A stretch of 64,000 bases of DNA from Pirellulales bacterium (GTDB taxonomy: Bacteria; Planctomycetota; Planctomycetia; Pirellulales; JACPPG01): positions 1 to 64,000 of the forward strand of contig DASZWQ010000069.1 in assembly GCA_035546535.1 (NCBI GenBank), given 5' to 3'. The notes under the pieces are model-generated. The model had not been told where the DNA came from and searched no databases. It saw only the letters and a program-made list of their open reading frames with translations. A program made the translations under genes and the position numbers. Below are positions 10,918 through 62,596 of the stretch, piece by piece (position 1 is the first letter of the stretch; each line of letters begins with the position of its first letter).

Positions 10918-10966
10918 TCGCGCCTGCGGCCACTGGTGCATTTGCCTTGTCGCAGGCGTTGTGAAA

Positions 10967-11002
10967 CTCCTCTCCCTCGCAGGGAGAGGGCAGGGTGAGG
11001 GT
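10967..11002. repeat. Short palindrome-rich repeat, copy 1 (CTCTCCC..GGGAGAGGG)
   Basis: The sequence contains the inverted arms CTCTCCC and GGGAGAG followed by GGCAGGGTGAGG. A second copy in the opposite orientation lies inside dnaE2 at 11845-11880. This kind of dispersed element is common in many bacterial genomes. This copy lies between the cytochrome gene and the end of dnaE2, which are convergent, so it could also slow transcription from either side. Confidence 0.75.
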
Positions 11003-11075: not shown

Positions 11076-14000
11076 TCAGCGAAAATCGCGCGACCGCGAG
11101 CTCATCTGCCCTGAGATCTCGCGCACGTCGAGCAGGCGATTCACCAGGATGTGGATCACTTCGCCTTGCCGCTCCAGCTTTCCTTGTGCAAGCAGCGCCA
11201 CGGCGTTTTTTGCCGCTGGGCGAAAACGTTGCCAGACGTCGGGGCGAATCACCAGGTTGGCAACGCCCGTTTCGTCTTCCAGGGTGACGAACGTGATGCC
11301 GCTGGCCGTGCCGGGCCGTTGCCGAACGAGGACCAGCCCGGCCACGCGTACTTGCCGCCCCGGCCGCGCAGTGGGCAGTTCGTTGGCGCGCAATACGCCG
11401 AGCGTCGCCAGCTTGTCGCGAAAGAACGACATCGGATGCGCTCGCAGCGACAAGCCCGCAGTCTGATAGTCGGCCAGTACTTCTTCGTACGTCGTGAGTG
11501 CCGGCAGTGGAACGGCCGGTTCTTGCGAGGCGGGATCGGGCAAAGGATCGAAGAGCGGCATCTCGCGCGCCTGCTCGCCGGCCGCCAGCGCCTGCCATAA
11601 TCCTGCGCGCCGATCTAACTCCAGCGATCGCACTGCGTCGGCTTTGACCAAGCGCACCAGGAGGGGACGCCCCAAGCGCGCCCGTCGCGCCAGGTCGTCG
11701 AGCGAACGAAACGGTCCGTCGCGCCGCGCCGTGGCGATCCTTTCCACAACTCCCTCGGGCATACCGGACAGTAGGCGCAGGCCGAGACGCAAGGCGAAGT
11801 TGCCTTTTCCGGCGGTGCCATCGCTTATTGCGCCGGCACGCTCGCCCCTCACCCTGCCCTCTCCCCGCAGGGGAGAGGGGTTTCGTGGAACGCCGCTAGA
11901 GTGATTTTCTGCCCGCACCACCTCGCGCTCTGGGCATTCCTCCAGCGTGCAATTCCATTCGCTCAGATTCACGTCCGCCGGCAGAACGGTTACACCATGC
12001 TCGCGCGCGTCGCGTACGAGCTGAGCCGGCGCGTAAAAACCCATGGGCTGGCTATTGACCAGCGCCGCGGCGAACGCGGCTGGGTAGTAGTACTTCAACC
12101 ATGACGAGACGTACACCAGCAGCGCGAAGCTGGCCGAATGCGATTCGGGAAAACCGTATTCGCCGAATCCGCTGATCTGGTGGAATACGCTTTCGGCAAA
12201 TTCCAGCGACAGTCCGCGCGAGAGCATGCCCGAGATTAACCGTTGACGGAATTTCTCGATGACGCCGGTCTTGCGCCAGGCTCCCATGGCGCGGCGCAGC
12301 TGATCGGCCTCGCCTGGCGTGAAGCCGGCCGCAACCACGGCCAGCCGCATCGCCTGCTCTTGAAAGATCGGCACGCCCATCGTTTTGGCGAGCACCTGGC
12401 GAATTTCTTCGTTGGGGAAATCAACGGGCTCCAGGCCCGCACGGCGCCGCAAGTAAGGATGCACCATGTTGCCCTGGATCGGACCGGGGCGCACGATCGC
12501 TACTTCGATCACCAGATCGTAGAACTCGCGTGGGCGCAGCCGTGGCAGCATGCTCATCTGCGCGCGGCTTTCGATCTGAAACACGCCCATCGTGTCGGCG
12601 CGGCAGATCATCTCATACACAGCCTCGTCAGCCTGGGGGATGTTGGCCAGTGTCAGTTGCGGGCCGTAATGCTGCTCGACCAGGTCGAAACATTTGTGAA
12701 TGGCCGTCAGCATGCCCAGCGCCAGGCAGTCGACTTTCAAGATGCCCAGCTCGTCCAGGTCGTCCTTGTCCCATTGAATGACGGTGCGTCCGGGCATGGC
12801 GGCGTTTTCGATCGGCACCATTTCGCACAAAGGCCCGCGCGTCATCACCATGCCGCCGACGTGTTGGGACAAGTGGCGAGGAAAGCCGACCAGTTCTTCA
12901 ACCAGCGTGGCCAGTTGCTGTCCGAGCGCGCTCGCCGGATCGATGCCTGCTTCCGGCAATCCGGTGCGCCAGCGATCTTCGTACCCACGGCCATCAATAG
13001 TTTTGGCTAGCGCATCGACCCGGTCGAGCGACAGCCCGAGCGCCTTTCCCACGTCGCGCACGGCCGAGCGCAGCCGATAGGTGATCACCTCAGCGGTCAT
13101 ACCGGCCCGATCGCGACCGTATTTGTCGTACACGTATTGCAGGACTTCTTCGCGCCGCTCGTGCTCGAAATCGATATCGATGTCCGGCGCTTCGTTGCGC
13201 TCGGCGCTGACGAAGCGTTCGAATAGCACGTCGATTTGCTCGGGATCGACCGAGGTCACACCCAGGCAATAGCAAACGGCGGAATTAGCCGCCGAGCCGC
13301 GTCCCTGGCAGAGGATGTTGCGGCTGCGCGCGTAACGGACCAGGTCCCACACGGTGAGAAAATAGGCCTCGTAGTGCAATTGCTCGATTAAATGCAGCTC
13401 GTGTTCGACCAGCTCGCGCACTTTCGGCGGAATCCCCTGCGGATAGCGCTCGCGGACTCCGCGCCAGGTCAATTGCGTTAGATGCGCCTGCGCCGTGACA
13501 CCCGGCGGGCAAAGCTCTTCGGGATATTCGTAACGCAATTCTTCCAGCGAAAACGTGCAGCGATCGGCGATTTCGGCCGCGCGCGCGATCGCCTGGGGAT
13601 AATCGACGAATAACTCCGCCATTTCCGCCGGCGATTTCAAGTGCCGCTCGGCGTTGGCAAAGCCGCGCGGGCCGGCCTCGGCCACGGTCACTCCTTGCCG
13701 CGTTGCTGCCAGAACATCGGCCAAAACGCGCCGCTCGGGCACGTGGTAATGCACGTCGTTGGCTGCCACCAGCGGTAACCTCGCCCGAGCGGCGAGCGCT
13801 ACTATTTCAGCCAGCGATTGAGAATCGTCCGGTCCGCGATGCAACTCAGCCAACGCGTAAGCCCGATCGCCGAAGACTTCGCGATAGCGGGTCAGGGAAT
13901 CAGCGACCGGTATCTCCGCGTTTTTCTCTCTCAGAGAAGTGTGAAGAGAAGGCGAAGTGGCCATCTCAGCCCGCATCGGCAGCACTGCGTTATGCTCGCC

Positions 14001-14483
14001 GACCGGTTTCTTGCTGGAAAACGCAGTCGCGGGAGATGGTCGCAAGCAAACAAGCGCAAGCAGGCCGTCGGCATGCTCGGCCAGATCCGTTAGGCGTAGT
14101 TCGCACTCTCCTTTCGGCGCGCGCCGCCGGCCCAGGGTGAGCATGCGCGATAGGTTCGCATAGCCCAAACGATCGATGGCCAGGAGCACCACCGGGAGCG
14201 CGTCGAGAGGATGAATTTCGGCGCCGATGAGCAGCTTCAGGTCCACGGCCTTGGCCGCGGCATGAGCCCGCACCACGCCGGCCAGGCTTTCGCGATCGGT
14301 AACGGCCAGCGCCGCATACCCCAGCTCGGCGGCCCGGGCTACGAGTTCGTCAGGGTGGGACGCGCCGGTGAGAAATGAAAAGTTTGTCTTCGCATGCAGC
14401 TCGGCATAACGCACCGCCGGCGGCGCGCCATTCGCGTGCGCGACAAGTCGGATTTCACGTTTTGCCGGAGGAGGATCGGGCAT
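11076..14483 (-). CDS. dnaE2: Error-prone DNA polymerase III alpha subunit DnaE2
   Basis: An 1135-residue C-family polymerase used in damage-induced mutagenesis with ImuA and ImuB. The N-terminal PHP domain begins YAELHAKTNFSFLTGASHP, characteristic of DnaE2. The palm has the PDIDIDFEHERR motif with catalytic aspartates, and the C-terminus has the OB-fold region (VRVAGLVLVRQRPGTASG). Two stretches look foreign to the family: about residues 165-205, and about 860-890, where the repeat 11845-11880 is translated as NPSPLRGEGRVRGE. Both keep the frame. It is separated from imuB by the GxxExxY unit. ATG 14483 has no Shine-Dalgarno site; the insertion upstream may have displaced it, or the true start is slightly downstream. 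Confidence 0.93.
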   Translation of the reverse strand: MPDPPPAKREIRLVAHANGAPPAVRYAELHAKTNFSFLTGASHPDELVARAAELGYAALAVTDRESLAGVVRAHAAAKAVDLKLLIGAEIHPLDALPVVLLAIDRLGYANLSRMLTLGRRRAPKGECELRLTDLAEHADGLLALVCLRPSPATAFSSKKPVGEHNAVLPMRAEMATSPSLHTSLREKNAEIPVADSLTRYREVFGDRAYALAELHRGPDDSQSLAEIVALAARARLPLVAANDVHYHVPERRVLADVLAATRQGVTVAEAGPRGFANAERHLKSPAEMAELFVDYPQAIARAAEIADRCTFSLEELRYEYPEELCPPGVTAQAHLTQLTWRGVRERYPQGIPPKVRELVEHELHLIEQLHYEAYFLTVWDLVRYARSRNILCQGRGSAANSAVCYCLGVTSVDPEQIDVLFERFVSAERNEAPDIDIDFEHERREEVLQYVYDKYGRDRAGMTAEVITYRLRSAVRDVGKALGLSLDRVDALAKTIDGRGYEDRWRTGLPEAGIDPASALGQQLATLVEELVGFPRHLSQHVGGMVMTRGPLCEMVPIENAAMPGRTVIQWDKDDLDELGILKVDCLALGMLTAIHKCFDLVEQHYGPQLTLANIPQADEAVYEMICRADTMGVFQIESRAQMSMLPRLRPREFYDLVIEVAIVRPGPIQGNMVHPYLRRRAGLEPVDFPNEEIRQVLAKTMGVPIFQEQAMRLAVVAAGFTPGEADQLRRAMGAWRKTGVIEKFRQRLISGMLSRGLSLEFAESVFHQISGFGEYGFPESHSASFALLVYVSSWLKYYYPAAFAAALVNSQPMGFYAPAQLVRDAREHGVTVLPADVNLSEWNCTLEECPEREVVRAENHSSGVPRNPSPLRGEGRVRGERAGAISDGTAGKGNFALRLGLRLLSGMPEGVVERIATARRDGPFRSLDDLARRARLGRPLLVRLVKADAVRSLELDRRAGLWQALAAGEQAREMPLFDPLPDPASQEPAVPLPALTTYEEVLADYQTAGLSLRAHPMSFFRDKLATLGVLRANELPTARPGRQVRVAGLVLVRQRPGTASGITFVTLEDETGVANLVIRPDVWQRFRPAAKNAVALLAQGKLERQGEVIHILVNRLLDVREISGQMSSRSRDFR
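11845..11880. repeat. Short palindrome-rich repeat, copy 2, inside dnaE2
   Basis: This copy is inverted relative to 10967-11002 and has arms CTCTCCCC and GGGGAGAG. It falls within the coding sequence of dnaE2 and is read in frame, adding a PSPLRGEGRVRGE-like peptide between the fingers/duplex-binding part and the C-terminal region. Similar in-frame repeat peptides occur in proteins of many bacteria. Confidence 0.7.
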
Positions 14484-14503
14484 GCTGCACGTTTCATGAA
14501 AAA

Positions 14504-14647
14504 TATTTCACCACGGAGACACGGAGACACAGAGAAGAAATGGAAAGTCGGAATGCAGAGTGAGGAATGGAAAAATTGTGCGTCTTCCTATTCATTATTT
14601 GCATTTATCGTTTCCCCTTTTCTGTGTCTCTCTGTCTCTGTGGTGAA
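14504..14647. repeat. 'cacggag' hairpin repeat, copy A (within the GxxExxY unit)
   Basis: A ~144-base hairpin-forming repeat. Left arm 14507-14540 reads TTCACCACGGAGACACGG and onward to agagaag; right arm 14614-14647 reads inversely and ends CTGTGGTGAA. The interior also has imperfect dyad symmetry, with GAATGCAGAGTGAGGAA on one side and TTCATTATTTGCATTTA on the other. Related copies are at 25284-25456, 26392-26531 and (truncated) 62491-62596. Confidence 0.7.
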
Positions 14648-14652
14648 TGTTC

Positions 14653-15027
14653 CTATAGGACACGTCGCCGGATGCCGTCTTTGAGAACAGGCACGTTGAA
14701 ATTGATCAGCAAACCAACCGGCTTGGTGCTGAGCTTTAGGTATGTCAGCAGTTGCGCTTCGTGGATGGGTAGTAAGGCTTCGACACATTTCAACTCGAGA
14801 ACGACCGCATCGGCGACGACGATGTCTAACCGATAGCCGCAGTCGAGTGCCGCATCCTTGTACTGTACGAGTAGAGGAACCTGTCGTTTTAGAGCGATGT
14901 GGCGCAGCGACAGCTCGTGGCATAGGCATTCTTCATAAGCCGATTCCAACAAACCTGGCCCTAGGATCTTATGCACTTCAATAGCAGCCCCAATGATTTC
15001 GGTAGTGATCTGTTCGTGTTTCAACAT
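14653..15027 (-). CDS. GxxExxY protein (PD-(D/E)XK nuclease-like)
   Basis: A 124-residue protein of the GxxExxY family, recognised from [13 protein letters not shown], the motif that names it. The core has a restriction-endonuclease-like pattern: an Asp in YRLDIVVAD, then a strand ending in ELK, matching the D...(D/E)xK signature; whether it cuts DNA is unproven for the family. ATG 15027 follows GAGGG and gives the usual family length. The frame continues upstream to 15129 through the terminal repeat, where it would encode [10 protein letters not shown], a peptide often annotated at the N-terminus of such proteins but most likely just translated repeat. It lies between imuB and dnaE2 on the same strand. 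Confidence 0.85.
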
Positions 15028-15101
15028 GACAACCCTCACACTCTTCGGTCTTTTGTCTTCTCCGTGCCTCCGTGTCTCCGTGGTGAAATACGTTTTTCTC
15101 G

Positions 15102-16814
15102 TTAGTCGAAGTCTCCGTGCCAGAACCATTGGCCGTCGCTGCGACGGCGGAAGAGCCAGTGGCGGTGGCCGTCGGTGGTTTCTACACGGTAGTAATCACG
15201 CCGCACGCCGCGGCCGCGCCACCAGCCGGTTTCGATCCGTTCCGGTCCCCAACTGCGCGCCACGTGGCGGCGCTCATGCCCCAGCGTGAACCAGAGGAGT
15301 GGCCCATCCGGCACCACGGCGACCACGGTGAGCGGAATCGGAGCGGGGGCCAAACGCAGCGGCCGCTGCGACCATTTGAAGTGCCGCTCTTCGTGCACCT
15401 GCTCTTTGTTCTTGCCACGCGGCGAACGCCGGTCCGTATGTCGCCCGGCTCCGCGCCGCCCGGGCATGCGACGATCGAATCGTCGCGAGGGTTCATTTCC
15501 CACGAGCGGCTGGTAGCGGCAGGCCTCTTCCGGCTGCGGATCGCTCGACAATTGCGCATGCAAGACGCATTGCCGCCCCAAGCGGCTGCTCAGCCGATCG
15601 ACGAGCATGGCCAGCGCGCGCGGATCATCGCGGCCGGCTGAGATCTCGAATAATTCTCCCTGATGGCATTCCAGTAGTTCGGTCTTCGTCACAGCGATGC
15701 GGATTCCCGCCACTGGCTCGGTCAAGCGCAGCCGATCGAGCTGCATGCGCAGCAACTCGAACAAATAGCGCGGCGCGGCGCTAGGGCGCATTAATCCCAC
15801 CGAGATCGGCACGCGCATGCGCGTGTCTGCCCCTGCAACATTCTTCTGCCCTCTGCCCACTGCCTGCTGCCGACTACTTGCCAACAGCTCGCATTCCAGC
15901 CGTAAGACGCCGCGCTCCTCGCGTAAAAGCATGCCGGTCAATCGTTCCAATAATCGTTCGATGACCGCTTCGATCGCGCCGGCCTGCGCCACCGGCTGCT
16001 CAAACGGCCAGGTGGCTTCGAGCGCCGCGGAAATCGTTTCGGCGCGGATCACTTCCTCGGCTGCGCCGGTCAGTTGATCCCAGCGCCGCAAAAGTTCTGG
16101 ACCGAAACGGGTCGCCAGCGAAGGACGCGGCAGCTTGTCTAATTGCCCGATTTGCACGAGTCCCAGGTCGGCAAGCAAGCGAACTTCTTCCGCCGACAAG
16201 CGCAGGGCCGCAGTCGGCAAGTCGGCCACGGCCGACAGAGACTCTCCCGGTGCGATGATCATGCCGGCGCGAGTCCCCGCCGCCTCGGCGTAATGGGCCG
16301 CAGCCCAGGCGGCGCCGAGAGTATCGGCCAGTGCCAGGCGGATTTGCCAGCCTTGCGCGCGCAGCTCGCGCGCCACGCGCTCGACAAGCGCCGGCTCGCC
16401 GCCAAACGATGGCCCCAGCCCGGTCACGTCCAAAAACAAACTTTCCGGATGTGCCGTCTCTTCCAGTCCCACGACGGGGCTGAAACGTTCGCACCAGGTG
16501 GCCAGGGCCACGAGCGCATTGCGCGAGGACAGAGAATCGTAACGCTGGTAACAGCAGGCAGCTGGCCGCGCCCGATCCGCGGCCACCGCCGTAGCTTCGG
16601 CCAGCGGCATGCCGGGCCGGATCGAGCGCGCTTGCGCAGCCGGCGAGCAATAAGCAATGGCAAGCGCGCCGCGCGACGTCCTGTCGTAAAGCGCCACAGT
16701 CGCGCCACCGGCATCGCGCAAGACGTCACCAGGACGATTCTTACCCTCGGGCTGCGTGGCGCACCACTGCTGTAGCGGCCACTGCGGGAGCCAGACGCAC
16801 AATACCCGTTTCAT
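15102..16814 (-). CDS. imuB: ImuB, Y-family polymerase-like mutagenesis protein
   Basis: A 570-residue Y-family polymerase homologue. It begins [15 protein letters not shown], lacking the catalytic acidic residues of an active Y-family polymerase, as is known for ImuB, which serves as an adaptor linking DnaE2 to the sliding clamp. Later parts carry the helix-hairpin-helix-like [13 protein letters not shown] and little-finger regions; the C-terminus is very basic and Arg-rich. Residues ~309-327 (15835-15890) read [16 protein letters not shown], encoded by a low-complexity CTGCC-rich repeat, probably a later in-frame insertion. I chose ATG 16814 (a second ATG is at 16817); it overlaps the end of imuA by 74 bases, which implies coupling. 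Confidence 0.9.
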
Positions 16815-17463
16815 CATCGAGTTCCAGATCCCAAGTCCGTCCCCCTGCATTACCACGCAAGCGCAATAGCTCTACGCGCAATCGCCGTCCTGCCGTCGCA
16901 ACCAAAGGCGTGACCAGAAAACGCGCCTCGGCCCAGGAAGGATCACCGCGGGCGGCGGCCGGTCGAATCAATAAGCCCAGGTTTCCTCCCGCCTCGGCCG
17001 CCAGCTGCAGACGACGTCCCAGTCGTGGCGGACACTTTTCTAAACGGCACCACACGGCGGCCACGCCCGGCGATCGCAACGATTGATCCAAAGCCCATTG
17101 CTCGTCGGCCGCGTTCTCGGGCCGGACCACGATCAGCCGTGCCAGATCGAGCCCGGCGCGCGCGGCGGCCGGAGGGTAAAAGCTTTTTGTGCGATCGATG
17201 ACCACGACCGGCCCGCCATCGCGACACGCCTCGCGCGCCGCCGACAGCGCCAGGCTGCCGGCGCCGCTACCGACCCCCGGCGACAACCACTCGACGAGTG
17301 CCCCCCGACTCAATCCACCCCGCGGCAGCGAGCGGTCCATCTCGGCACAGCCGGTCGAAACCGATGCCCCCGTCCCGCGCCGGGCCCGAGAGAACCGCTC
17401 CAGGCTCTCCTGCAACTGGGCCACAATCTGTCGGCGGGGGGGCGATAAGTTCTTGTCTTTCAT
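16741..17463 (-). CDS. imuA: ImuA-like RecA-related protein
   Basis: A 240-residue RecA/SulA-like protein, first gene of the mutagenesis operon imuA-imuB-dnaE2. It has the family opening QIVAQLQ, the TGCAEMDRSLPRGGL segment and the strand VVVIDRTKSFYPPAA. The place of the Walker A loop (SPGVGSGAGSLAL) lacks the lysine, so ATP hydrolysis is doubtful, as in other ImuA proteins. In well-studied bacteria the cassette is controlled by LexA and acts in translesion synthesis and induced mutagenesis. ATG 17463 is preferred because an earlier in-frame ATG (17493) would lie inside the predicted promoter/operator. Confidence 0.82.
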   Translation of the reverse strand: MKDKNLSPPRRQIVAQLQESLERFSRARRGTGASVSTGCAEMDRSLPRGGLSRGALVEWLSPGVGSGAGSLALSAAREACRDGGPVVVIDRTKSFYPPAAARAGLDLARLIVVRPENAADEQWALDQSLRSPGVAAVWCRLEKCPPRLGRRLQLAAEAGGNLGLLIRPAAARGDPSWAEARFLVTPLVATAGRRLRVELLRLRGNAGGRTWDLELDDETGIVRLAPAVAATAVVRHAARG

Positions 17464-17480
17464 CGCATTACTCGTGCTAG

Positions 17481-17512
17481 CGATACTGTACATTTGTATC
17501 GTATTTTGTCAA
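17481..17512 (-). promoter_or_regulatory. imuA promoter with embedded palindromic operator
   Basis: Reading the minus strand, TTGACA (17507-17512) and TACAGT (17485-17490) form -35 and -10 boxes with a 16-base spacer, about 20-25 bases before the imuA start. A perfect inverted repeat CGATAC-N9-GTATCG (17481-17501) overlaps the -10 box and most of the spacer, the position expected for a repressor site. Because imuA-imuB-dnaE2 cassettes are usually SOS genes, a LexA-type operator is the natural guess, but the motif matches neither the enterobacterial nor the Gram-positive LexA box. Confidence 0.5.
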
Positions 17513-17663
17513 GGTGAATTTCTCCTGAGGAGGCCCAAAAAGAAGCGCGCCGAAAGGGGATCGCGGCCAGCAAATCCGCCGGCAGAAAGCCGTTAGAATC
17601 GCCGAGCGGGCGCGCGGAAAAACGCTGCCTACAGGAGCGCAATCATGCCCTAAAGGCTCTGCA

Positions 17664-20600
17664 TCACTCGGGCAGCGCGAGTGGCGTCCATTCGATATCG
17701 CAGCGCGTGTGCAGCCGCGAAGCAAGCGCCGCGCAGTGCGGCTGCCCATCGACGAGCGAAGCCGCGACCTCCCACAGAGGCAAGCCGGCCACTTCGTAGC
17801 ACAAGGCCGGGTCATTGGCACTGTCGACGACCACCGACGGGGCATGGCCGGCAATCCTCGTTACCCCTTCGGCGAGTGCCGCGACATCTTCCGGCCGATT
17901 GGTCAGCACGAGAAGCCGGCGATTGCCGCCGCACATGGCCAGCTCTGGCATGGCCTCGGCCAGGCAGGATCGCAAGAGCTCGTCCTCCGAACCCGGCGAT
18001 TCATTCTCCTCAAGCGCTCCACGTGCCACGGTGGCTGAACGTACGGCCGACAACACCGCCGCGCGGGAACGTGTTCGTAACGCGGCTATGAGCTGCTCGC
18101 GAAAATCCTTGCCGCCGGCGAGCGCGGCGGACAATCCGCCCCGTGGAGCGATCAGTTCGCGCTCGAATTCCTCGTCCAACTGGGCGACGATTTCTGGCAG
18201 GCGCTGCTGGGCAATCTCTCGCAACGCCGCATCAACCGCCGCCGCCCCGGACGCGTGTGCCTCGCGACGCCTCGCATCATCATGCGCAAACAGTGTGGCC
18301 AGCCGCGACAATTCGCGGCGCGTCTCGGACAATTGCTCGGCGATCGTCGACAATTCCCAAGTCAACATCTGCGCGTATTTGACCGCCGAGGCGAATACCG
18401 TATCCATGAATTTCAGACTGGCGTAATGCAGCAGGCGCGACTGTTGCTCGGCCGGCGAGGCTTGGGCGCTGCCCCGCGCGGGCCACAGCCGCGATCGCGA
18501 CTTGCCACCGATCACCGCCCCGGCTGCCGAGCGCAACTCGTCGCCTGTCTTGGCGCGTACTTTTTGCGCCGTGTCTCGAAGCTCGCGCACGTGCCGCGAG
18601 ATTTCTTCCATCGCGCGGGCAGCTCCGGCCAGCCGCACGCGATGATTGTTCGTCAACTCGACGACCCACGCTCGCAGCGCCGCCCCGTGCTGCCGGCTTG
18701 TTTCGCGCATGTGCGTTTCGAGCGCGGTAACCAGTACGGTTGGGTCGGCTCCTGAAGCGGGAAGGCCCAGAACACGGTCGAGCGCCGCCAGTTGCGGATG
18801 CATTTCGTCATCGAAGCCGCCCGTCGCCGGCGATTTCAACGGGACTGCAGCTGCTTGAGTTGTTAATTCCTGCAGGAACGCGTCGACGTCGCCGCCAAGG
18901 CCTGAGGCGGCTGCTTGTTCGAGCTGTTCGGTGACATGATCGAGCGACAAGCCCAAAAGCGCGATGCGCTCACTTGTCAGCCGGTCGGTTTCGGCACTGG
19001 ATGAGGTACCGATCGCCGGGTGTGCGGAATGCCCGGACGCCGCAGCCTGCCTGTCACGGCCGTCCGGTGCAGTGCCGCACCACAGAGCAAGGAGCGCACC
19101 GCATGCGTCGTCGGCGGCTGTGGCCACGACTTCATCTCCCGCCCCCAGGCGGCAGACTCCAAAAGTGCGGAGCGCCGGTTCTGCCGCTCGCCCGTCGGCC
19201 GCAGGATCCGACGACTCGCGGCGCGCGGCGTCCAGCCATGAACCTGCCACGGCCGTGGAGCTGAGAAACAGATAATCGGCCACCGAGCGAGCAACGCCTG
19301 GCAGGTCGTGCTCTCCCAACTCGTCGCCGAGATTGACCAAGTACATGCCCGGCAGGCGCGCGTCGCTAGGGCTGCTCGGCGGCAGCCCTAGCGATGGTTC
19401 GCCAGGGTAGCCGTGCTCGCAAAAGTGCGCGAGCTCGCTAAGCACGCCAAAGGTGTTAGCCACGGCCAGCTCGTGGGCCGACGCATTGCGTCTCGACCAG
19501 TGCAATAGCAGCACGCTCAGGCAATCGTCCGGCAGGCCACGATCGCGCAGCAGTCGGCGGAGCAGGTAAGCGACGTCGAGCGCCATGCCACCGCCGGTGC
19601 CGCCGCAGATCGACGCGACGAGCATGAGGCGCGGAGCGTTGTTGCCGGCAGGCAAGCCAGTCTGCCCGGCGCTAGCCTCGATCGCTGCCGCCGCAGTGAT
19701 GGCGTCGAGTGCCGCAGTCAACTGCTCGACCAGTGGCTCGGCATGGTCCACCATGGCGAGCCGGCCCAGCGGCCGTAACCCTTCGGTCTCGAGCGAACGG
19801 GGAATGTTGTACAGCCAGCGGCGGCTCATCCACGCTAAAAACTTGGTCGAGCCGTGCCGATAATCTTCCGGCTTGCGCAGCGGCATCGCCAGAAACTCGC
19901 CGACACTTCGTGTCCGCTCGGGCGCGGCATCGGCGGCGACGTCGCTCGGATCGGTATCGAAGGCCAGCATTTTCAATGCCGGCAGCTTTTGCAAATCACC
20001 GAAGCGATCCGCCAACCGGCGTTCGAGTTGATTCACGACGAGCCGCGCGGTCCCTCCCACTCCCACCATCAAGAGCGGCCGAAAGGCAGCCTCGAGCGAC
20101 GCATTAAGCGGAGGCAAGTCGTGGACGACCGGCTTGGCCCGTGGACGGCGATGCGGCGCGGCGACGCCGGACTCTTTGGCGGGAGCCGGCGCCAGCGGCT
20201 TTTCCAACGACTTCGCGGCGTGGCCATTCAAGGCCGTGGCGGCCCCGGAGTCGATCAATTCTTCCGGGACGCCTTTGTCCGAGGCGCTGACGCAGGTCGC
20301 CGAAGTTACCTCCTCGGAGGAAGGTATTTCTTGGCGCGCCGTTCCACCGTCGAGCATTTGCGTCGAGGTCTCGGGCAACGGGCCCACTGGGGCGGCCGGG
20401 CGCGCTTGATGGGTGTCGCCGATGGCCAGCGGCGTCGTCTCGCCGCCGACGGTTCCGGCCGGCTTGGCTTCGGCAGGAGATCGGCCCGCCGTTGTCAATG
20501 CGTCGACCATGGCCCGGGCCGTGCCGAAGCGCGCGGCCGGGTCTTTGGAAAGGGCGCGATCGATAATGGGCTTGTCGTCGGGCGGCAGCGCGGTCAGACG

Positions 20601-21287
20601 CGGTCGGCTTTGCAGATGCTGCGCTGCCAGTTGGGCCGTGGTCTTGCCCGGGAACGGCAGCGTGTCGGTGAGCATCTCCTGGTAGACGATCGCCAGGCTG
20701 TATTGATCGCTGCACTGGCTGGGGCGATCGTCGAACACCTCAGGCGAAGCGTAAATCGGCGTCAGGCCACCCATCATCGAAGCCCGGGTATCGTCGATGT
20801 CTTTGACGAGCCCGAAATCCGCGACCTTGACGTGACCCGCAACCAGCAGCAGATTCTCGGGCTTAACGTCGAGATGCTGCAGCGAATACTTGTCGCGCAT
20901 GTAGTCGAGCGCATCGGCGGCGTCGCGCAAATAGCCCAGTAACTCGTCGCGGGGAATGCCGACCATGCCGGCGGCCTTGCACTGGTCGTGCCGGTCCTTG
21001 AGGCTCATGTCGGCCAGCTCGGTAACGATGACCAACTGGCCGTCGACGACTTCGATGCGTTCGAGCGAGAGCAGGAAGGGATGCCGCACGAGCTTGACGC
21101 GCGACAGGGCTTTCAGCTCGCGCCGCGCGCGTTCGTCGTCGAGATATCCATAGACGAACTTGATGGCCTTGGTGAGGCCGCCGGGCGCCGTGGCCTTCCA
21201 CACTTCGCCGTAGCCGCCGGCGCCGATACGTTCGGTTACTTCGTAGCCGAGTATCGGTTCGCGGGTGCGAGTCGCTGACGTTGCCAC
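17664..21287 (-). CDS. Ser/Thr protein kinase fused to tubulin-like (FtsZ-superfamily) domain
   Basis: A 1207-residue fusion. Residues ~14-265 are a eukaryotic-type kinase: GAGGYGEVW P-loop, AIKFVYGY with the ATP-binding Lys, LQHLDVKPENLLL catalytic loop (HLD in place of HRD), ADFGLVK and YASPE. A ~130-residue low-complexity linker follows. From ~405 the protein is tubulin-like: VGVGGTARLVV opens a Rossmann-type fold and ICGGTGGGMALD (~563) matches the GGGTGTG signature of FtsZ/tubulin; the remainder is long and helical. GTG 21287 starts 3 bases after the FHA-EAL gene's stop, with AGGTGA overlapping that stop, so the two are cotranscribed. I infer GTP-dependent assembly regulated by phosphorylation; no membrane segment is seen. 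Confidence 0.85.
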   Translation of the reverse strand: MATSATRTREPILGYEVTERIGAGGYGEVWKATAPGGLTKAIKFVYGYLDDERARRELKALSRVKLVRHPFLLSLERIEVVDGQLVIVTELADMSLKDRHDQCKAAGMVGIPRDELLGYLRDAADALDYMRDKYSLQHLDVKPENLLLVAGHVKVADFGLVKDIDDTRASMMGGLTPIYASPEVFDDRPSQCSDQYSLAIVYQEMLTDTLPFPGKTTAQLAAQHLQSRPRLTALPPDDKPIIDRALSKDPAARFGTARAMVDALTTAGRSPAEAKPAGTVGGETTPLAIGDTHQARPAAPVGPLPETSTQMLDGGTARQEIPSSEEVTSATCVSASDKGVPEELIDSGAATALNGHAAKSLEKPLAPAPAKESGVAAPHRRPRAKPVVHDLPPLNASLEAAFRPLLMVGVGGTARLVVNQLERRLADRFGDLQKLPALKMLAFDTDPSDVAADAAPERTRSVGEFLAMPLRKPEDYRHGSTKFLAWMSRRWLYNIPRSLETEGLRPLGRLAMVDHAEPLVEQLTAALDAITAAAAIEASAGQTGLPAGNNAPRLMLVASICGGTGGGMALDVAYLLRRLLRDRGLPDDCLSVLLLHWSRRNASAHELAVANTFGVLSELAHFCEHGYPGEPSLGLPPSSPSDARLPGMYLVNLGDELGEHDLPGVARSVADYLFLSSTAVAGSWLDAARRESSDPAADGRAAEPALRTFGVCRLGAGDEVVATAADDACGALLALWCGTAPDGRDRQAAASGHSAHPAIGTSSSAETDRLTSERIALLGLSLDHVTEQLEQAAASGLGGDVDAFLQELTTQAAAVPLKSPATGGFDDEMHPQLAALDRVLGLPASGADPTVLVTALETHMRETSRQHGAALRAWVVELTNNHRVRLAGAARAMEEISRHVRELRDTAQKVRAKTGDELRSAAGAVIGGKSRSRLWPARGSAQASPAEQQSRLLHYASLKFMDTVFASAVKYAQMLTWELSTIAEQLSETRRELSRLATLFAHDDARRREAHASGAAAVDAALREIAQQRLPEIVAQLDEEFERELIAPRGGLSAALAGGKDFREQLIAALRTRSRAAVLSAVRSATVARGALEENESPGSEDELLRSCLAEAMPELAMCGGNRRLLVLTNRPEDVAALAEGVTRIAGHAPSVVVDSANDPALCYEVAGLPLWEVAASLVDGQPHCAALASRLHTRCDIEWTPLALPE

Positions 21288-21290
21288 GGT

Positions 21291-22454
21291 TCACCTGCGT
21301 AACGACGCTTCCAAGGTGTGCTCGACAGAACGATCTGCCACGCTCGCGGCCTGGCCGGGTTTGCCGAACAGGTTACCTTCGCCGTACGCGATGCCCAGAT
21401 CGTGGCAGGTGCGCGATTCTTCCTCGGTCTGCAAGCCGGTGGCGATGGCCATGCTGCCCAGGTCGTGGCACGCACGTACGATCGATTGAATTTGCCGCTG
21501 CCGTTCGGGTTGGCGATGAATGCCGGTTGTCAACGACGAAGCGAGCACGAGGAAATCGGGGGGCACGCTTTTCTTTTCCGAGACTTGCGCGTGCGTCCCT
21601 GCGAAGCCCTGGTACGCCGTGCGGATGCCTAGTTCGCGCAGCCCCAGCCGTAACGTCTGAAAATAAGGGATGTCGCAGACCACGGTCTCGGGGATCGAAA
21701 TGACCAGACGGTGACCTGCGGGCAGGAGCCTGGTGAGCAAGGTTAACGAGTCGAATAAGGCATCGCTGCCAATTTCGGCCGCTTCTACCGGCAAGAACAG
21801 GTTGTCGCCCAGGCCGTGCCGGGTCGATTCTTCGACGGCGATCAGCCGCGCCAGTTGGTACAAATGTCCGGCCACGCGCGGCGCCGAGGCCAGCACCAAT
21901 TGTTCACAGGGGATCGCCGGCTGCTCGGTGGAAGAACGGAGCGCCTCATGGCCGAAGATGCGATGCGATCCCAGATCAATCACTGGCCGGAAATGAACAT
22001 CGACGCTTCGTTGCGTCAGTGACTGCTGCAAGCGGCGGATCGCGCGAACCAGGTCGCGGCCTTGGGCCGCGTCGCTGGTCGTGTTACCAACCTCGGCCAC
22101 TTCCGTGGCCATGGAATACGACCGGCCGGAGCGCTCGGCGTAAAAGGTGAATTCGACGCCGGCGATGACCAGGATGTCTCCGTCGGCGAGTTCGGCGTCT
22201 TGAATCCTTTGGCCGTTCAGCAGCGTGCCATTGGTGCTGTGCAGGTCGCGAACGCGATACGTTTTTCCTTCGCGCAGGATGACGGCGTGCTCGCGCGAAA
22301 CGCGGCTGTCGTCAATTTGCAAATCGGCTGATTCGACACGCCCGATCGAGAAGGGGAAGGAGTGCAGGGGATGCTGCAGCGCATCGGCCCCCTCGCGTAG
22401 CCGTTCCAGCCAGGGGACTCCGACGACGCGCTTTTCCATTAATTGCGTTTGCAT
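21291..22454 (-). CDS. FHA domain protein with degenerate EAL domain
   Basis: A 387-residue protein. Residues ~20-105 are an FHA domain (FSIGRVESADLQIDDSRVSREHA, then DLHSTNGTLLNGQRI), which binds phosphothreonine. Residues ~130-375 are an EAL-type phosphodiesterase fold with GHEALRS at the start and YGEGNLFGKP at the end. Nearly all catalytic positions are changed: NVS is PVE, EITE is SIPE, DDFG is QGFA, the KxD is VLA, and AEGVET is ATGLQT. It is therefore very unlikely to hydrolyse c-di-GMP. It is directly upstream of, and coupled to, the kinase-tubulin gene, so its FHA may bind a target of that kinase. ATG 22454 has no clear ribosome site; a second ATG lies at 22439. Confidence 0.85.
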   Translation of the reverse strand: MQTQLMEKRVVGVPWLERLREGADALQHPLHSFPFSIGRVESADLQIDDSRVSREHAVILREGKTYRVRDLHSTNGTLLNGQRIQDAELADGDILVIAGVEFTFYAERSGRSYSMATEVAEVGNTTSDAAQGRDLVRAIRRLQQSLTQRSVDVHFRPVIDLGSHRIFGHEALRSSTEQPAIPCEQLVLASAPRVAGHLYQLARLIAVEESTRHGLGDNLFLPVEAAEIGSDALFDSLTLLTRLLPAGHRLVISIPETVVCDIPYFQTLRLGLRELGIRTAYQGFAGTHAQVSEKKSVPPDFLVLASSLTTGIHRQPERQRQIQSIVRACHDLGSMAIATGLQTEEESRTCHDLGIAYGEGNLFGKPGQAASVADRSVEHTLEASLRR

Positions 22455-22961
22455 GTTCGGTGCGTCCGAATGCCGAGTTCGCTCTGTCGTGTCTTGGTTT
22501 GAAGTGCTTAATGAAATCCGCTGGCGCGCGCCACGCAGGCTGCGCGAAGCGTCATGGTCGGGAAGCTCTATGCTGAAAAGCCGCGATATGTCGAAAGGGA
22601 ACCCGCAGACTTGCCTTTCAACTCTAGCATTAAGGGCTCGTGCAAGCGTCCGCGCGGCGACGCACTTTTTGCAGATTCCGGACGTTTCACCAGACTGCCC
22701 GTCTGTCGGGTGAAGGCGGGTAGAACGACGCGTATGCCTACGTGGCGCTATCATGCTGAAGCAATTGTGCGTTTCGCGCGTGGCCCAGGCCGCTACGGCC
22801 GCTGCCATCGTTGCGGCCGTACCCAAGTCGCGCCGCGCGCCAAATCGATCAGGGGCCGCGATCCGCCTTTACCGGCCGGCACGAGATAGAGTTGCGATAC
22901 CCGAGACTCTTTCTAGGAATTGCTAGCCGTCACTGCCGGTGCACGGCCAGCACCCACATCC
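22455..22961. other. Divergent intergenic region of the signalling locus
   Basis: About 500 bases separate the FHA-EAL gene from the divergent receiver-GGDEF-CBS gene. Open frames here are short, cysteine/arginine-rich and lack ribosome sites, so I see no gene. The two promoters should lie here, but I could not identify boxes with confidence. Confidence 0.5.
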
Positions 22962-24386
22962 ATGACATGGCCAGCCATGACACCGAAACCACTGAAGGTC
23001 CTGCTCGTCGCACCCGACAAATCGTTGCTCGGATCGCTGTCAAAACTATTCGATTTGTTGGGGCTTTCGGCGCTCCAGGTGACCGACCCCCGCCAGGCCG
23101 CGGCGGCCGCGGCGAGTGAACGACCAGATATTCTGATTCTTGATGCCGATCTATTGGATCAAGGTGGTCGCGAGCTTTGTCGTGCCGTGTGCGGCGGTGG
23201 GCTGCGCAGCCACGTGTTTACGCTGCTCTTGGTGCCCGACGGCGCGCCTTTGGAAGATATGATCGAGGCGCTAAAGCTCGGCGTTGACGATTTTCTGGCC
23301 AAGCCGGTGGTCTTCGGCGAATTGTTGTCACGGCTGCGGGCTGCCGCGCGGGGGTTGGAGTACGAGCGCCGTGTGCAGGTTTATTTCGGCACCGACGCGC
23401 TCTTGGGGCTGCCGAACGAAAACGCTTTCCGTCACGCGCTGTCGGCCGCGCTCGCCAGGCCCGATCGGGGCGGGCCGGTCGCGTGCGTGGCCTTCGACTT
23501 GGATTTTTTCAATCGCCTGAATTACACGTACGGGCATCCGCAGGCTGACGAGGCGTTGCGTGGCGTCGCGCGGCTGCTGACGAAAACGTGCCGGCCAAAC
23601 GAACTGGCTGCCGCGCGCGGCGATGATCAGTTTTGCGTGCTGCTGCCGAATCGGAATGAAGCGGACGCCGGACATTGGGCGGAGCAGTTTCGCGCGGCGC
23701 TCGAAGAAACGCAATTTTCGCTCGGCACGGCCGTGGAAACGATCACGGCCAGCTTCGGCGTTGCAACGGGCGAACCGGGCGACTGCCAGGCGGATACTCT
23801 ACTGGCCAGCGCGACCGAGGCGCTTGGTGCCGCCAAGCGCGCCGGGCGGAACTGCGTCGTACTGCGCAGCTCCCTGGATGATGAGGCGAACGCCTGGACC
23901 AACCTCGGGGCACCGGGCAAGTTGTTCGATCGCACCGTGGCGCGCGACGTCATGGTTCCCCTGTCGATCACGCTGAAGCCACACGATTCGCTCGAGCACG
24001 CGGCAGCAATCTTCGAGCGGACGGCACAACCGGCGCTGCCGGTCGTCGACGACGAGGGAAACCTGGCCGGCCTGCTGTTTGTCGAGGAACTGCAGTCGCG
24101 AAACAGCGACGGTCACCACACGAAGCAACTCGTACGAAACGTAATGGATGCCGATCCCGTCCGTTTCGCCGAGCAGACCACCTTTGCCGAGCTGGTCAGC
24201 TTCTTCAGCCAGGACGCCCGCGGGCTGGCGCTTATTACGGACGGAACCCGGCCGATCGGAGTCGTTACGCGCAACGAACTGGCGTCACTCTCCGAACCAT
24301 TGACGGTCGCGAGTTTTGCCACGAGTGACGACAATGCGTCGACGAGCGATTACTTGATCGTGCCGTCGACGTCGGATGGCTCGTAA
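22962..24386 (+). CDS. Receiver-like + degenerate GGDEF + CBS pair protein
   Basis: A 474-residue three-domain protein. Residues ~6-120 resemble a response-regulator receiver (LKVLLVAPDKSLL, ILILDADLLDQGG with the phospho-acceptor Asp, and FLAKPVVFGEL with the conserved Lys). Residues ~125-290 are a GGDEF domain (DALLGLPNENAFR, FDLDFFNRLNYTYGH), but the signature is GDDQF instead of GG(D/E)EF at ~residue 220, so cyclase activity is doubtful. Residues ~305-455 hold two CBS motifs (ARDVMVPLSITLKPHDSLEHA and NVMDADPVRF) that commonly bind adenosyl nucleotides. It is divergent from the FHA-EAL/kinase pair. The start could be 22962 or 22977; neither has a clear ribosome site. Confidence 0.82.
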   Translation: MTWPAMTPKPLKVLLVAPDKSLLGSLSKLFDLLGLSALQVTDPRQAAAAAASERPDILILDADLLDQGGRELCRAVCGGGLRSHVFTLLLVPDGAPLEDMIEALKLGVDDFLAKPVVFGELLSRLRAAARGLEYERRVQVYFGTDALLGLPNENAFRHALSAALARPDRGGPVACVAFDLDFFNRLNYTYGHPQADEALRGVARLLTKTCRPNELAAARGDDQFCVLLPNRNEADAGHWAEQFRAALEETQFSLGTAVETITASFGVATGEPGDCQADTLLASATEALGAAKRAGRNCVVLRSSLDDEANAWTNLGAPGKLFDRTVARDVMVPLSITLKPHDSLEHAAAIFERTAQPALPVVDDEGNLAGLLFVEELQSRNSDGHHTKQLVRNVMDADPVRFAEQTTFAELVSFFSQDARGLALITDGTRPIGVVTRNELASLSEPLTVASFATSDDNASTSDYLIVPSTSDGS

Positions 24387-24397
24387 TCACCAGGTAG

Positions 24398-24446
24398 AAA
24401 AAACGCGGCCGCCGGCTGCCACGCGTCGTGGTCGGCCGGCGGCCAT
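24398..24446 (-). terminator. Intrinsic terminator of the Nif11 peptide gene
   Basis: Perfect 10-base arms GGCCGCCGGC (24407-24416) and GCCGGCGGCC (24435-24444) form a hairpin. Read on the minus strand it is followed by six T (24398-24403). It lies ~35 bases past the Nif11 stop. Confidence 0.75.
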
Positions 24447-24480
24447 CGCGCTTCTGGGTCGCGTTGATCGATCGAAGCGA

Positions 24481-24744
24481 CTAGCAGCTGCCGCAGGCGA
24501 CCTGGATCAGCTCGAGGTCCGAAATCTGGCTGTTGCCCTTGCGCGAGCAGACCATCGTGGCGTACTCTTCGTACTGCTTGGCGTTGAACTTGAAGTTGAG
24601 CTTGTTGGCAATGCGCACGATCTCTTGAAGCGCTTGCTTCTTGTCCTGGTTCTTGAGCATCTCGATCTGGCTGCGGATCTGACCGTCCTCACGAACCTTC
24701 TTCAGGAACGCCTCGACCGGATTCATCTTGGTGACGGTGGTCAT
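24481..24744 (-). CDS. Nif11-like leader peptide (orphan RiPP-precursor type)
   Basis: An 87-residue peptide. Residues 7-65 match the Nif11 leader domain: MNPVEAFLKKVREDGQIR, then a short helix and ANKLNFKFNAKQYEEY. Nif11 domains are leader peptides of ribosomal natural products and usually end in a Gly-Gly-like cleavage motif. Here the end is SDLELIQVACGSC, in which the usual ELxxVAGG has become VACGSC, leaving no core beyond a few residues but with two Cys. AAGGAGA precedes the ATG. An inverted repeat GTGGAT-N6-ATCCAC (24808-24825) lies upstream and a good terminator downstream, so it is a stand-alone transcription unit. No modifying enzyme, peptidase transporter or radical SAM protein is nearby. 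Confidence 0.85.
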   Translation of the reverse strand: MTTVTKMNPVEAFLKKVREDGQIRSQIEMLKNQDKKQALQEIVRIANKLNFKFNAKQYEEYATMVCSRKGNSQISDLELIQVACGSC

Positions 24745-25283
24745 CGATCAGTCTCCTTGCGAATGAGGAGCGCGTGGTGGGATATCGTTTGCGCTCCGGA
24801 TGGCTTCGTGGATAAACGCATCCACGTCACCAAAACGCTAGGTCGCCGTCAAACCGGAGCGCGGGTAGGAATGTGCCGAAGATGACGCGCACAACCGGCC
24901 ACGGCGGCCCGCGCCGTAAGGGACTTAGCGAACGTTGCGCCCGCTGCCGTTCAAGAACGCAATCCCCCTGCGGCCGGGCATGACGGATCGACGCGAAAAA
25001 GGGACCCTGCCGACGAAGCGGCTACCCTCGTCCCCGCCTGGCAGCACAGCGAATTCCAGCCTGCGGAGGGGCAGTTTTCAATCAAGTCATTGCAGAACGC
25101 AAGTTCCGCACGTCGGGTCGAATCGCGCGCCGGCCCGCTGCCGCTTAACGTCCGCGACGCCTCGCGCCCCGTCGAACGGAATGATTCGCGTCGTCGGCAC
25201 GGGCACCACGACCGACGGCACGATGAGCCGTGTTAACGCGCAGAACTGCCAGGATTTTACCGCGTGCGGTCTGGACAGGAAGG
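24745..25283. other. Intergenic region upstream of the Nif11 gene
   Basis: About 540 bases with no convincing gene. It should contain the Nif11 promoter; the inverted repeat GTGGAT/ATCCAC at 24808-24825 is a possible operator. A minus-strand open frame (25087-25365) ends in TCGTCVLQ-like residues but begins inside the neighbouring hairpin repeat and lacks a ribosome site. Confidence 0.4.
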
Positions 25284-25456
25284 TATTGCACCACAGGAGA
25301 CACGGAGGCACGGAGAAGAGGACGAGAATGATGAATGCAAAACGATGAAAGATGAATAGGCTCAAGCCCGCGATTCAAAACCTTGACATGCATCATCATT
25401 CTGCATTCTTACTTTTGCATTTTCTTCTCCGTGCCTCCGTGTCTCCGTGGTGGCAT
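25284..25456. repeat. 'cacggag' hairpin repeat, copy B
   Basis: A 173-base inverted-repeat element. Left arm (25284-25320) contains CACCACAGGAGACACGGAGG; right arm (25421-25456) is its inverse, ending TCTCCGTGGTGGCAT. The interior carries GAATGATGAATGCAAAA and its approximate inverse around CATCATTCTGCATTC. The element ends 5 bases before the stop of the NlpC/P60 gene. Confidence 0.75.
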
Positions 25457-25460
25457 TTTT

Positions 25461-26378
25461 TCACGCTTGCCTGTCATGGAACACGCGGTGCACGTGGCTG
25501 GCGCAGCGGTTGTACCAGGAGTTTTCGCGGAAGGGGCGCAGGTGTACGCCGCAGGGAATTGGGCGCCCTCGATCGTCGTTCACGCCCGAGCCGTGACTGT
25601 CCACGAGCAAGGGCAAACCGCTCGCGGCGCGGCCGATCGGGCCGACCCACAGCACGACGTGCGTGATGGGCCCGTCCTCGCGGCCCCGGATGTAGAGCAA
25701 GTCGCCGGTGCGCAGCAGGTTCACGCGTTTGTCGTAGGCGGCAGGCAATTCGACGTGTTCGATGCGCACGGGGTGCCCTTTGACAAACCCATGATCCGCG
25801 CGCGACTGCTCGCCGACCGCGGAGGAAATCTTGATCCCAAAGCCTTGATTGAAGACAAAGCTCGTGAAATTGCTACAGTCGAAGCCTGGCCCATTGTGGC
25901 CGACACAGGTTTGTTTCCAGGGCCAATGGGCCGGCGGATTCCAATCGGGTATGTGATGGTGTTGATAGCCGTAACCGATGAATCGCTCGGCCGTGGCGAT
26001 CACGCGCTCGCGCTTCCACTCGAGCGGCCGCGCGGACAGGCCTTCGAGCGGCGTATAGAGCCGCGGCTTCGGCCCCCACGCCCCCATGCGGCGGCGCACG
26101 TGCTCGGAATACCATTCGTCGTGCGGAGTTGCCGACTCGCGCTTGGGATCGCCGCGCTCCGAGTGCAGTAAATCGCCGATCAGTTCCTCAACTGGGCCGC
26201 TGTAGGCGATCGAGTAGTCCGCGAGCGACGCAGGCCGCGGCGATTCATCGTGTATTGGTTCATCAGCAAGCGCGCGCGAGGCGATGAGTTGGCTCGGCAC
26301 CAGGCTGCCGAGCGCCATCAAACGCACAGCCTTTCGTCGGTTTAGCTGTATTGTCATCGTGGATGGCTTTTCGGTCAT
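25461..26378 (-). CDS. Secreted NlpC/P60-like cysteine peptidase
   Basis: A 305-residue protein. The N-terminus (LNRRKAVRLMALGSLVPSQL) looks like a Tat or Sec signal with adjacent arginines. The C-terminal ~150 residues are NlpC/P60-like: nucleophile Cys in GFDCSNFTSFVFN, His in ITHVVLWVG and a polar third residue near VDSHGSG. Such enzymes cut peptidoglycan stem peptides or other gamma-D-glutamyl links. The start could be ATG 26378 or 26357; the in-frame stretch before that crosses hairpin repeat copy C and is probably not translated. The gene is bracketed by hairpin copies B and C, and lies downstream of the PQQ-like gene on the same strand. Confidence 0.82.
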   Translation of the reverse strand: MTEKPSTMTIQLNRRKAVRLMALGSLVPSQLIASRALADEPIHDESPRPASLADYSIAYSGPVEELIGDLLHSERGDPKRESATPHDEWYSEHVRRRMGAWGPKPRLYTPLEGLSARPLEWKRERVIATAERFIGYGYQHHHIPDWNPPAHWPWKQTCVGHNGPGFDCSNFTSFVFNQGFGIKISSAVGEQSRADHGFVKGHPVRIEHVELPAAYDKRVNLLRTGDLLYIRGREDGPITHVVLWVGPIGRAASGLPLLVDSHGSGVNDDRGRPIPCGVHLRPFRENSWYNRCASHVHRVFHDRQA

Positions 26379-26391
26379 GTCTTTGAAGAGG

Positions 26392-26531
26392 GACTCACCA
26401 CGGAGGCACTGAGACACGGAGAAGAAATGATGAATGCTGAATGATGGACTGTCGACGTCCAATGTTCCTCGTGCATCATGCTGCATTCTTACTTCTGCTT
26501 CTCTGTGTCTCCGTCCCTCCGTGGTGAAGTC
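26392..26531. repeat. 'cacggag' hairpin repeat, copy C
   Basis: A 140-base element. The left arm begins GACTCACCACGGAGGCACTG; the right arm (from ~26500) ends TCCCTCCGTGGTGAAGTC, giving inverted ends GACT(T)CACCACGGAG. The interior has GATGAATGCTGAATGATGG and GCATCATGCTGCATTC in opposite orientation. It fills most of the gap between the PQQ-like gene stop (26547) and the NlpC gene start (26378). Confidence 0.75.
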
Positions 26532-26546
26532 TTGTTCACAAAAACG

Positions 26547-42560: not shown

Positions 42561-42650
42561 GGGAATCCTCCGCATTGAAATCGTTCCGCGAGAAATGTTC
42601 GCGGCAGTTTAATGGCAGTGCGATCGCCCGGCAAACGAGCGCGAGAGACT

Positions 42651-62490: not shown

Positions 62491-62596
62491 AGCGAGGAAA
62501 TGCAGAATGCAAATTGATGAATGATGAGTGGGCTGGAGTCTCTTCGTTCCCCACTTATCAGTTTTTCTCCGTGTCTCCGTGCCTCCGTGGTGAATC
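62491..62596. repeat. 'cacggag' hairpin repeat, copy D, left arm missing
   Basis: The right arm (62565-62596) reads TTCTCCGTGTCTCCGTGCCT and ends CCGTGGTGAATC. The interior GAAATGCAGAATGCAAA and GATGAATGATGAG is present on the left, but the expected left arm is absent; the element is fused to the end of the DUF11 gene. The right arm encodes the last residues of the ROK kinase. Confidence 0.7.

Follow-up and report, generated by a model that had tools for sequence, protein, structure and literature searches.

Why does a single GxxExxY gene, enclosed by inverted repeats, stand between imuB and dnaE2 in a Pirellulales bacterium, and what does its protein have to do with those repeats? We investigated this question in a window of 64,000 nucleotides within contig C69 of the source genome (6.36 Mb in 210 contigs), in the remainder of that genome, and at related loci in other genomes.

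A GxxExxY gene between inverted arms

The unit opens with a left arm at 14504–14534 (plus strand), which reads TATTTCAC and then three heptamers, CACGGAG (14512–14518), CACGGAG (14520–14526) and CACAGAG (14528–14534). It closes with a right arm at 15060–15090, which on the minus strand reads TATTTCAC followed by CACGGAG three times; spacers in both arms are 1 nt long. Inverted complementarity of the arms reaches 14499–14538 and 15056–15095 (40 nt, 90%). The string TATTTCACCACGGAG occurs exactly at 14504–14518 (plus) and 15076–15090 (minus), and 100 shuffles of the window gave a mean of 0.02 matches with up to two mismatches. Terminal inverted repeats, as in DDE-type insertion sequences and MITEs, are present. 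An rRNA intervening sequence was rejected as an identity, as the unit lies outside 16S and 23S rRNA, between imuB and dnaE2.

The single gene inside is a GxxExxY (PDDEXK_3) gene of the PD-(D/E)XK nuclease family at 14653–15027 (minus strand), which encodes 124 amino acids including T8, D68, E78, K80 and Q92xxxY96. Its start is most likely the ATG at 15027, because the family models start five residues downstream. The 10-residue peptide in the longer reading frame is the arm translated in frame. On the left-arm side lies dnaE2, for an error-prone polymerase (11076–14483, minus), and on the right-arm side imuB, with an IMS domain (15102–16856, minus). An imuA-like gene is found at 16741–17493 (minus), scoring 111.6 bits with the ImuA model, below its 150-bit cut-off. 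The first-pass annotation had described inverted ends of about 31 bases around one GxxExxY gene, fitted tightly between its neighbours with about 12 and 20 bases to spare. The arms bear this out, and the gaps measure 11 bp from the right arm to the end of imuB and 20 bp from the start of dnaE2 to the left arm.

A third, degenerate arm of the right type lies inside the unit at 14617–14650 (minus) and is 87% complementary to the left arm over 31 nt. Its stretch 14617–14647 pairs with 14507–14537 of the left arm to form an inner hairpin, 14504–14650, that resembles gene-less hairpins elsewhere in the same genome. Because the third arm pairs with the left arm, we read the left part of the unit as a hairpin joined to the gene.

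Other repeats were also observed in the window. Inverted CTCTCCC/GGGAGAGGG copies lie in and beside the dnaE2 3′ region at 10963–11001 and 11846–11884, and a similar repeat is present in the imuB-dnaE2 junction of genome G033. A palindromic family, GCCGAGCAAGCTCGGCG, occurs at 42649, 44130 and 52295.

The GxxExxY protein

The window protein is a full member of TIGR04256 (149.9 bits; cut-off 35) and of PF13366, PDDEXK_3 (145.3 bits; cut-off 22). Domain models run on it returned PDDEXK_3 only and no HUH domain, and a sequence search of the PDB with this single protein as query gave no match. We aligned 95 sequences, namely the window protein, 77 of 80 relatives (three with stops were left out) and 17 of 29 loci from the phylum. 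The D…ELK pattern that had been likened to a nuclease corresponds to the PD-(D/E)XK residues D68, E78 and K80, which are invariant in this alignment, as are G23, G25, E28, Y31, N109 and F110; Q92 and Y96 are nearly so. A QxxxY motif after a D…ExK core marks the RecB/Cas4/lambda-exonuclease branch.

An AlphaFold model of the protein reached a pLDDT of 96.5. No Foldseek match reached E 0.001; the best were SSO0001 (E 0.005), which we take to be a Cas4 protein, lambda exonuclease, and an Argonaute-associated Cas4-family protein. VIA-align placed SSO0001 at Z 9.5 over 100 residues with an R.M.S.D. of 4.4; the remaining matches were assorted folds with Z of at most 7.7. As modelled, the protein appears Cas4/lambda-exonuclease-like in fold. 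The proteins of the source genome and of a second species of its genus (G004) are 79% identical with a dN of 0.15, and the sequences suggest purifying selection.

Inverted arms accompany most GxxExxY genes

We assembled two sets of loci and called arms present at a best arm-arm score of at least 14. A similarity-ranked set, from a protein search of genome contigs, held the nearest 80 of at least 558 relatives (60–74% identical). The other held 54 loci, found by profile in the phylum of the source genome and supplemented by additional copies from six genomes that were multicopy or rich in arms; one element (L040, identical to L133) is common to both. Arms were present in 64 of 80 loci in the similarity-ranked set and in 0 of 62 displaced controls. 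Swapping arms between loci gave 142 of 500, a rate inflated by words that many loci have in common. In the phylum set, 51 of 54 loci had matching inverted arms, with 0 of 50 for displaced controls and 37 of 500 for swapped arms; the exceptions are L139, L146 and L281. The recurrent tie between GxxExxY genes and inverted ends that the first-pass annotation had proposed is therefore upheld by 51 of 54 against 0 of 50. Its idea of conserved ends stands only insofar as inverted ends recur, since their sequence is specific to each element and not one repeat. Genes lacking such ends, which it had named as evidence to the contrary, number 3 of 54 and 16 of 80, a minority in each set; all score below 14.

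The gene was found in 8 plasmid records and in none of the phages searched. In the protein tree, 70 rows carry one of 20 phylum names. Loci L078 (labelled Methanothrix) and L083 (Paceibacterota) have an identical protein and the same arms and come from one sampling site; a binning error for one of them is likely.

The arms are built of matched heptamers

Reading inward, an arm starts with TT-Y-AC (also given as TT[C/A]AC) and continues with heptamers, as a rule three, most of which fit C-R-Y-N-R-A-(A/G/T) and which are separated by spacers of 1–4 nt. The commonest pairs of spacer lengths are (1,1), (1,2), (2,2), (3,3) and (2,3). Heptamer word and spacer lengths vary between elements and agree between the two arms of an element in gapless arm alignments. 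A single conserved end sequence was rejected, as the words span CACGGAG, CGCAGAT, CACGAAT, CATGAAG, ACAGGAT and more.

Heptamer units were defined on one arm only before the arms were compared. Between arms, heptamer columns were identical at 992 of 1078 positions (51 elements) and 1295 of 1379 (67 elements), or 92–94%, and spacer columns at 119 of 196 and 115 of 199, or 58–61%. Heptamers were the better matched in 39 and 43 elements and spacers in 7 and 15, with 5 and 9 ties. This contrast disfavours the possibility that the arms are alike merely through copying from one template, because copying should match spacers as well as heptamers. Heptamers look selected for their sequence, as putative protein sites. 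Inverted symmetry drops to background about 6–9 bp outside the first heptamer (113 elements), so the element ends there; 12 units from the source genome had no symmetry beyond shared composition outside the first heptamer.

Ends and protein co-vary

We built a tree of 131 proteins without stops, 109 of which had a readable word. Heptamer positions 2, 4, 5 and 7 and the spacers each required fewer changes on the tree than any of 300 shuffles. In the phylum subset alone, positions 5 and 7 and the spacers were still below all shuffles, with weak results for position 2 (48 of 300 shuffles) and position 4 (16 of 300). The nearest protein in another genome had the same word in 42 of 109 cases, with a mean difference of 0.88 bases against 1.64 for random pairs. 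Copies within the same genome had a common word in only 3 of 40 pairs, on which ground we rejected the idea that the host genome determines the arms. Both word and spacing go with the protein tree, and not with the genome in which the element resides.

A mutual-information scan paired residue 8 with heptamer base 5 (z 25.7); the next column for this base was residue 9, which adjoins residue 8 (z 12.7). G at base 5 goes with Thr, and A with Ala, Ser or Val. In the first set, the counts were 75 for G with Thr, 8 for G with another residue, 1 for A with Thr and 23 for A with another residue, so that 98 of 107 agree. The prediction was fixed before we turned to 93 further loci, which are partly other copies from genomes already used. 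Among these, 90 had the gene; after 13 duplicates and one edge case were dropped, 76 were tested, with 49 giving readable heptamer arms, 11 scoring below 13 and 16 whose arms, or chance matches, did not fit the heptamer pattern. An alignable residue 8 was present in 39, and in the same order the counts were 18, 2, 0 and 19 (Fisher 3e-9). Once rows with 80% or more likeness, among themselves or with the first set, were removed, 17, 2, 0 and 16 remained.

The pooled set contained 16 phylogenetically independent pairs, of which 10.8 on average changed the same way and 0 the opposite way (p 0.001). Residue 8 was the best of 113 columns, the next having p 0.016. These pairs were drawn from a whole tree built without the tested columns, with branch support ignored, and the sign test is not significant once corrected for all columns; the weight of the association therefore rests on its replication in the further loci. 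By eye only, three of four plasmid copies (Bacteroides, Sphingomonas, Bernardetia and Gemmatirosa) fit the rule; the Gemmatirosa copy, whose frame is broken, has Ser with G, against it.

Other pairings did not hold up. Base 7 with residue 116 gave 86/10/0/12 in the first set, was weaker in the further loci (25/7/4/11), and received no support from independent pairs. Spacer length with residue 95 or 116 appeared in the raw tables, unsupported by independent pairs.

Gene-less copies

Dispersed hairpins with the same arms and no gene are present in the source genome, in support of the gene-less derivatives that had been proposed. The three further hairpins claimed for the window resolve into two hairpins, at approximately 25285–25456 and 26392–26532, and a lone arm at 62560–62594 (minus strand) with no partner seen nearby. 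Over the whole genome, a loose arm pattern with up to two mismatches had 35 matches against 5 in a reversed control. Nine inverted arm pairs have starts 71–171 bp apart and four have starts 404–691 bp apart. One of these four holds the GxxExxY gene and three hold other sequence. Two of the three (L005, C57:23044–23752; L002, C14:33171–33667) enclose ORFs of 169 and 90 codons, which are reading frames and no proof of genes; the last (L015, C79:453–874) has short ORFs only. The source genome has one GxxExxY gene copy, which counts against the explanation we favor below. A permissive Rfam search of window positions 14300–26700 gave eight matches, none at the family gathering score, and six of them were miRNA models on the hairpins.

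GxxExxY genes were found in 96 of 199 sampled genomes of the phylum. At least five matches to CRCRGAG words, a count that includes the gene's own two arms, were found in 37 of the 199, and 34 of these 37 have GxxExxY (Fisher 2e-9). Genes for four-helix-bundle proteins are present in 33 of the 37. Both gene families occur in 74 genomes, only one of them in 22 and 26, and neither in 77. Correlation at the level of genomes is not enough by itself to point to GxxExxY, because the four-helix-bundle genes correlate nearly as well and co-occur with it. We then subtracted own arms, noting that only part of the element copies were sampled. At least four extra copies were found in 12 of 14 genomes with a word-bearing sampled element versus 5 of 16 others (p 0.004); at a threshold of ten the link fades (8 of 14 versus 4 of 16, p 0.13). 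Three arm-rich genomes without a GxxExxY match (G107 with 98 matches, G095 with 40 and G147 with 11) count against our favored explanation, as does G196, which has 33 arm matches and elements of other words only.

G100 has 473 arm matches, and its high-copy hairpins lie inside a 310-bp repeat (L293, 5393–5705; L300–L328). Many copies of it have CTAG ends, and at least 40 more matches, each about 200 bp or longer, are 85–96% identical. Two other arm pairs in G100 read without the 310-bp coat. The CTAG-ended repeat looks like the work of another transposase, which counts against our favored explanation, and its arrangement makes clear that a different agent can carry heptamer hairpins. By eye, some of its copies lie at a TAG stop codon.

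Insertion sites and spread

In the same genus, G004 has the gene with two arms at the same imuB-dnaE2 junction. G001 has gene and arms on two contigs, with the break inside the gene, and G003 has one arm and a remnant with the gene absent. We then inspected junctions in other genera where imuB and dnaE2 share a contig, and 0 of 15 had room for the gene. These gaps, measured between tblastn ends, are below about 250 bp; we read the sequence of 12, and in several of the 12 the two genes abut. This supports the insertion into the imu operon that the first-pass annotation had proposed, and the gene at this place without repeats, which it had considered contrary evidence, was not found at the 15 junctions. 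Of the empty sites it had suggested looking for, these 15 junctions give only the lack of room for the gene; no exact empty site at the nucleotide level was obtained among same-genus species, whose flanks are too diverged, and this counts against the explanation we favor. By eye, the junctions L188 (G020), L189 (G036) and L201 (G033) contain other short inverted or tandem repeats.

In Sphingomonas parapaucimobilis (NZ_CP155749.1, 482837–483265), the gene lies between fabD and fabG, 33 and 2 bp away, with an upstream arm only. The Bacteroides copy starts 59 bp after radA and ends 44 bp before the next gene. The protein tree requires 36 changes of phylum, against 44 on average in shuffles and a least possible 19. 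This mixing of phyla speaks for transfer between phyla, with some host signal.

No regular target-site duplication was obtained (n = 113), a further point against our favored explanation. Flanks shared 4-mers in 73 cases versus 62.8 (sd 5.3) in swapped pairs, 6-mers in 10 versus 5.8 (sd 2.2), and 8-mers in 4 versus 0.4 (sd 0.7). The four cases sharing 8-mers or longer are L145 and L088, within further arm copies, and L141 and L085, which are purine-rich.

How the unit may persist and spread

We consider it probable that the unit is a minimal two-ended element, a small Cas4/RecB-like PD-(D/E)XK nuclease gene between inverted ends built of heptamers, and that heptamer reading by the nuclease at both ends contributes to the unit's persistence and spread. 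That the GxxExxY protein would recognise its own ends is well supported, because ends and protein co-vary, and we infer that it also cuts, because the active site is kept. The protein would bind the heptamers of both ends and nick or cut there. Its likely substrates would be extruded or single-stranded hairpins, because breaking both strands at tens of copies in the chromosome would do damage. Host repair or replication would then copy the unit, or a gene-less derivative, elsewhere. Such a scheme would be like that thought for RAYT proteins acting on REPINs, with an unrelated enzyme. Only tentatively do we go further, to the possibility, close to what the first-pass annotation had suggested, that a stand-alone nuclease and host repair alone move the unit and its gene-less derivatives, with no known transposase; in that same, tentative reading natural variation would reveal a code by which the protein recognises DNA.

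A homing or retention nuclease is an unlikely alternative here. Other machinery would have made the hairpins, and GxxExxY would recognise and cut the heptamer arms of gene-less hairpins and then be copied in when repair uses a gene-bearing copy; in a variant, it would protect the element from loss, a role also proposed for TnpB in IS200/605. The arms common to gene-less and gene-bearing units, the retained nuclease residues and the third arm, which makes the window unit look like a hairpin fused to a gene, all suit this account. The fused form is not general, however, because G004, and G001 as far as its two contigs show, have two arms and no extra hairpin, and gene-bearing units within one genome carry different words. 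We think it still less probable that some other transposase mobilises the repeats in trans and that GxxExxY is a passenger or defence-type cargo. The CTAG-ended 310-bp family in G100, the three arm pairs of the source genome that enclose other sequence (two with ORFs) and the shared type of architecture in four-helix-bundle genes are what one would expect of it, but a passenger should not co-vary with its ends, whereas here the words go with the protein tree, and base 5 with residue 8, in the further loci too.

Inverted arms flanking one ORF between genes could also pair in a transcript, with GxxExxY processing the hairpin much as RNase III excises intervening sequences from 23S rRNA, and rRNA intervening sequences of the same outline are described in PMC4990558. 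This we regard as very improbable: spacers inside the would-be stem are often mismatched, and arm mismatches on the gene strand show no excess of G·U-compatible pairs (212 vs 187, p 0.23), an absence of wobble asymmetry on which we rejected an RNA hairpin under selection.

Relation to known systems

In REPIN-RAYT systems, few gene copies flanked by inverted repeats coexist with numerous short inverted pairs that hold no gene and occupy intergenic DNA. They are our best working analogy, and not the family. Like them, GxxExxY combines a gene in inverted repeats with gene-less inverted pairs; unlike them, its enzyme is a PD-(D/E)XK protein and not a HUH/Y1 transposase, and its ends are spaced heptamers of an element-specific word. 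REPIN-RAYT systems are the subject of PMC3116915 and PMC8266576. The 23S rRNA intervening sequences with an S23/four-helix-bundle ORF also place a small ORF between terminal inverted repeats, and PMC4990558 cites a 1993 proposal that this ORF served mobility. The GxxExxY unit differs in lying outside rRNA and encoding a different protein. With Cas4, RecB and lambda exonuclease the GxxExxY protein appears to share the D…ExK…QxxxY residues; at 124 amino acids, with an N-terminal GxxExxY helix and carried inside inverted ends of its own, it is unlike them.

The bins that contain near relatives belong to 20 named phyla, and no function was found in the literature searched. Our full-text search, mostly of openly readable journals, returned no paper on GxxExxY function or on such ends; mentions of GxxExxY, PF13366, TIGR04256 and the repeat words were incidental only, and an earlier description may exist. 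If the ends are the nuclease's substrate, a large uncharacterised gene family would become a family of selfish elements, and annotated starts with the 10-residue arm peptide would be read-through of element ends. Many natural nuclease/site pairs would then be available for studying how specificity is read.

The four-helix-bundle genes of the same phylum (TIGR02436; L153–L182) have inverted heptamer arms in 25 of 30 loci versus 1 of 28 displaced controls. Their heptamers are mostly in tandem without spacers, matched within an element and differing between elements. These proteins, with their period-7 arms, may form a sister system on the same plan, and the source genome has one such locus (L163, G000:C10:52232–52549).
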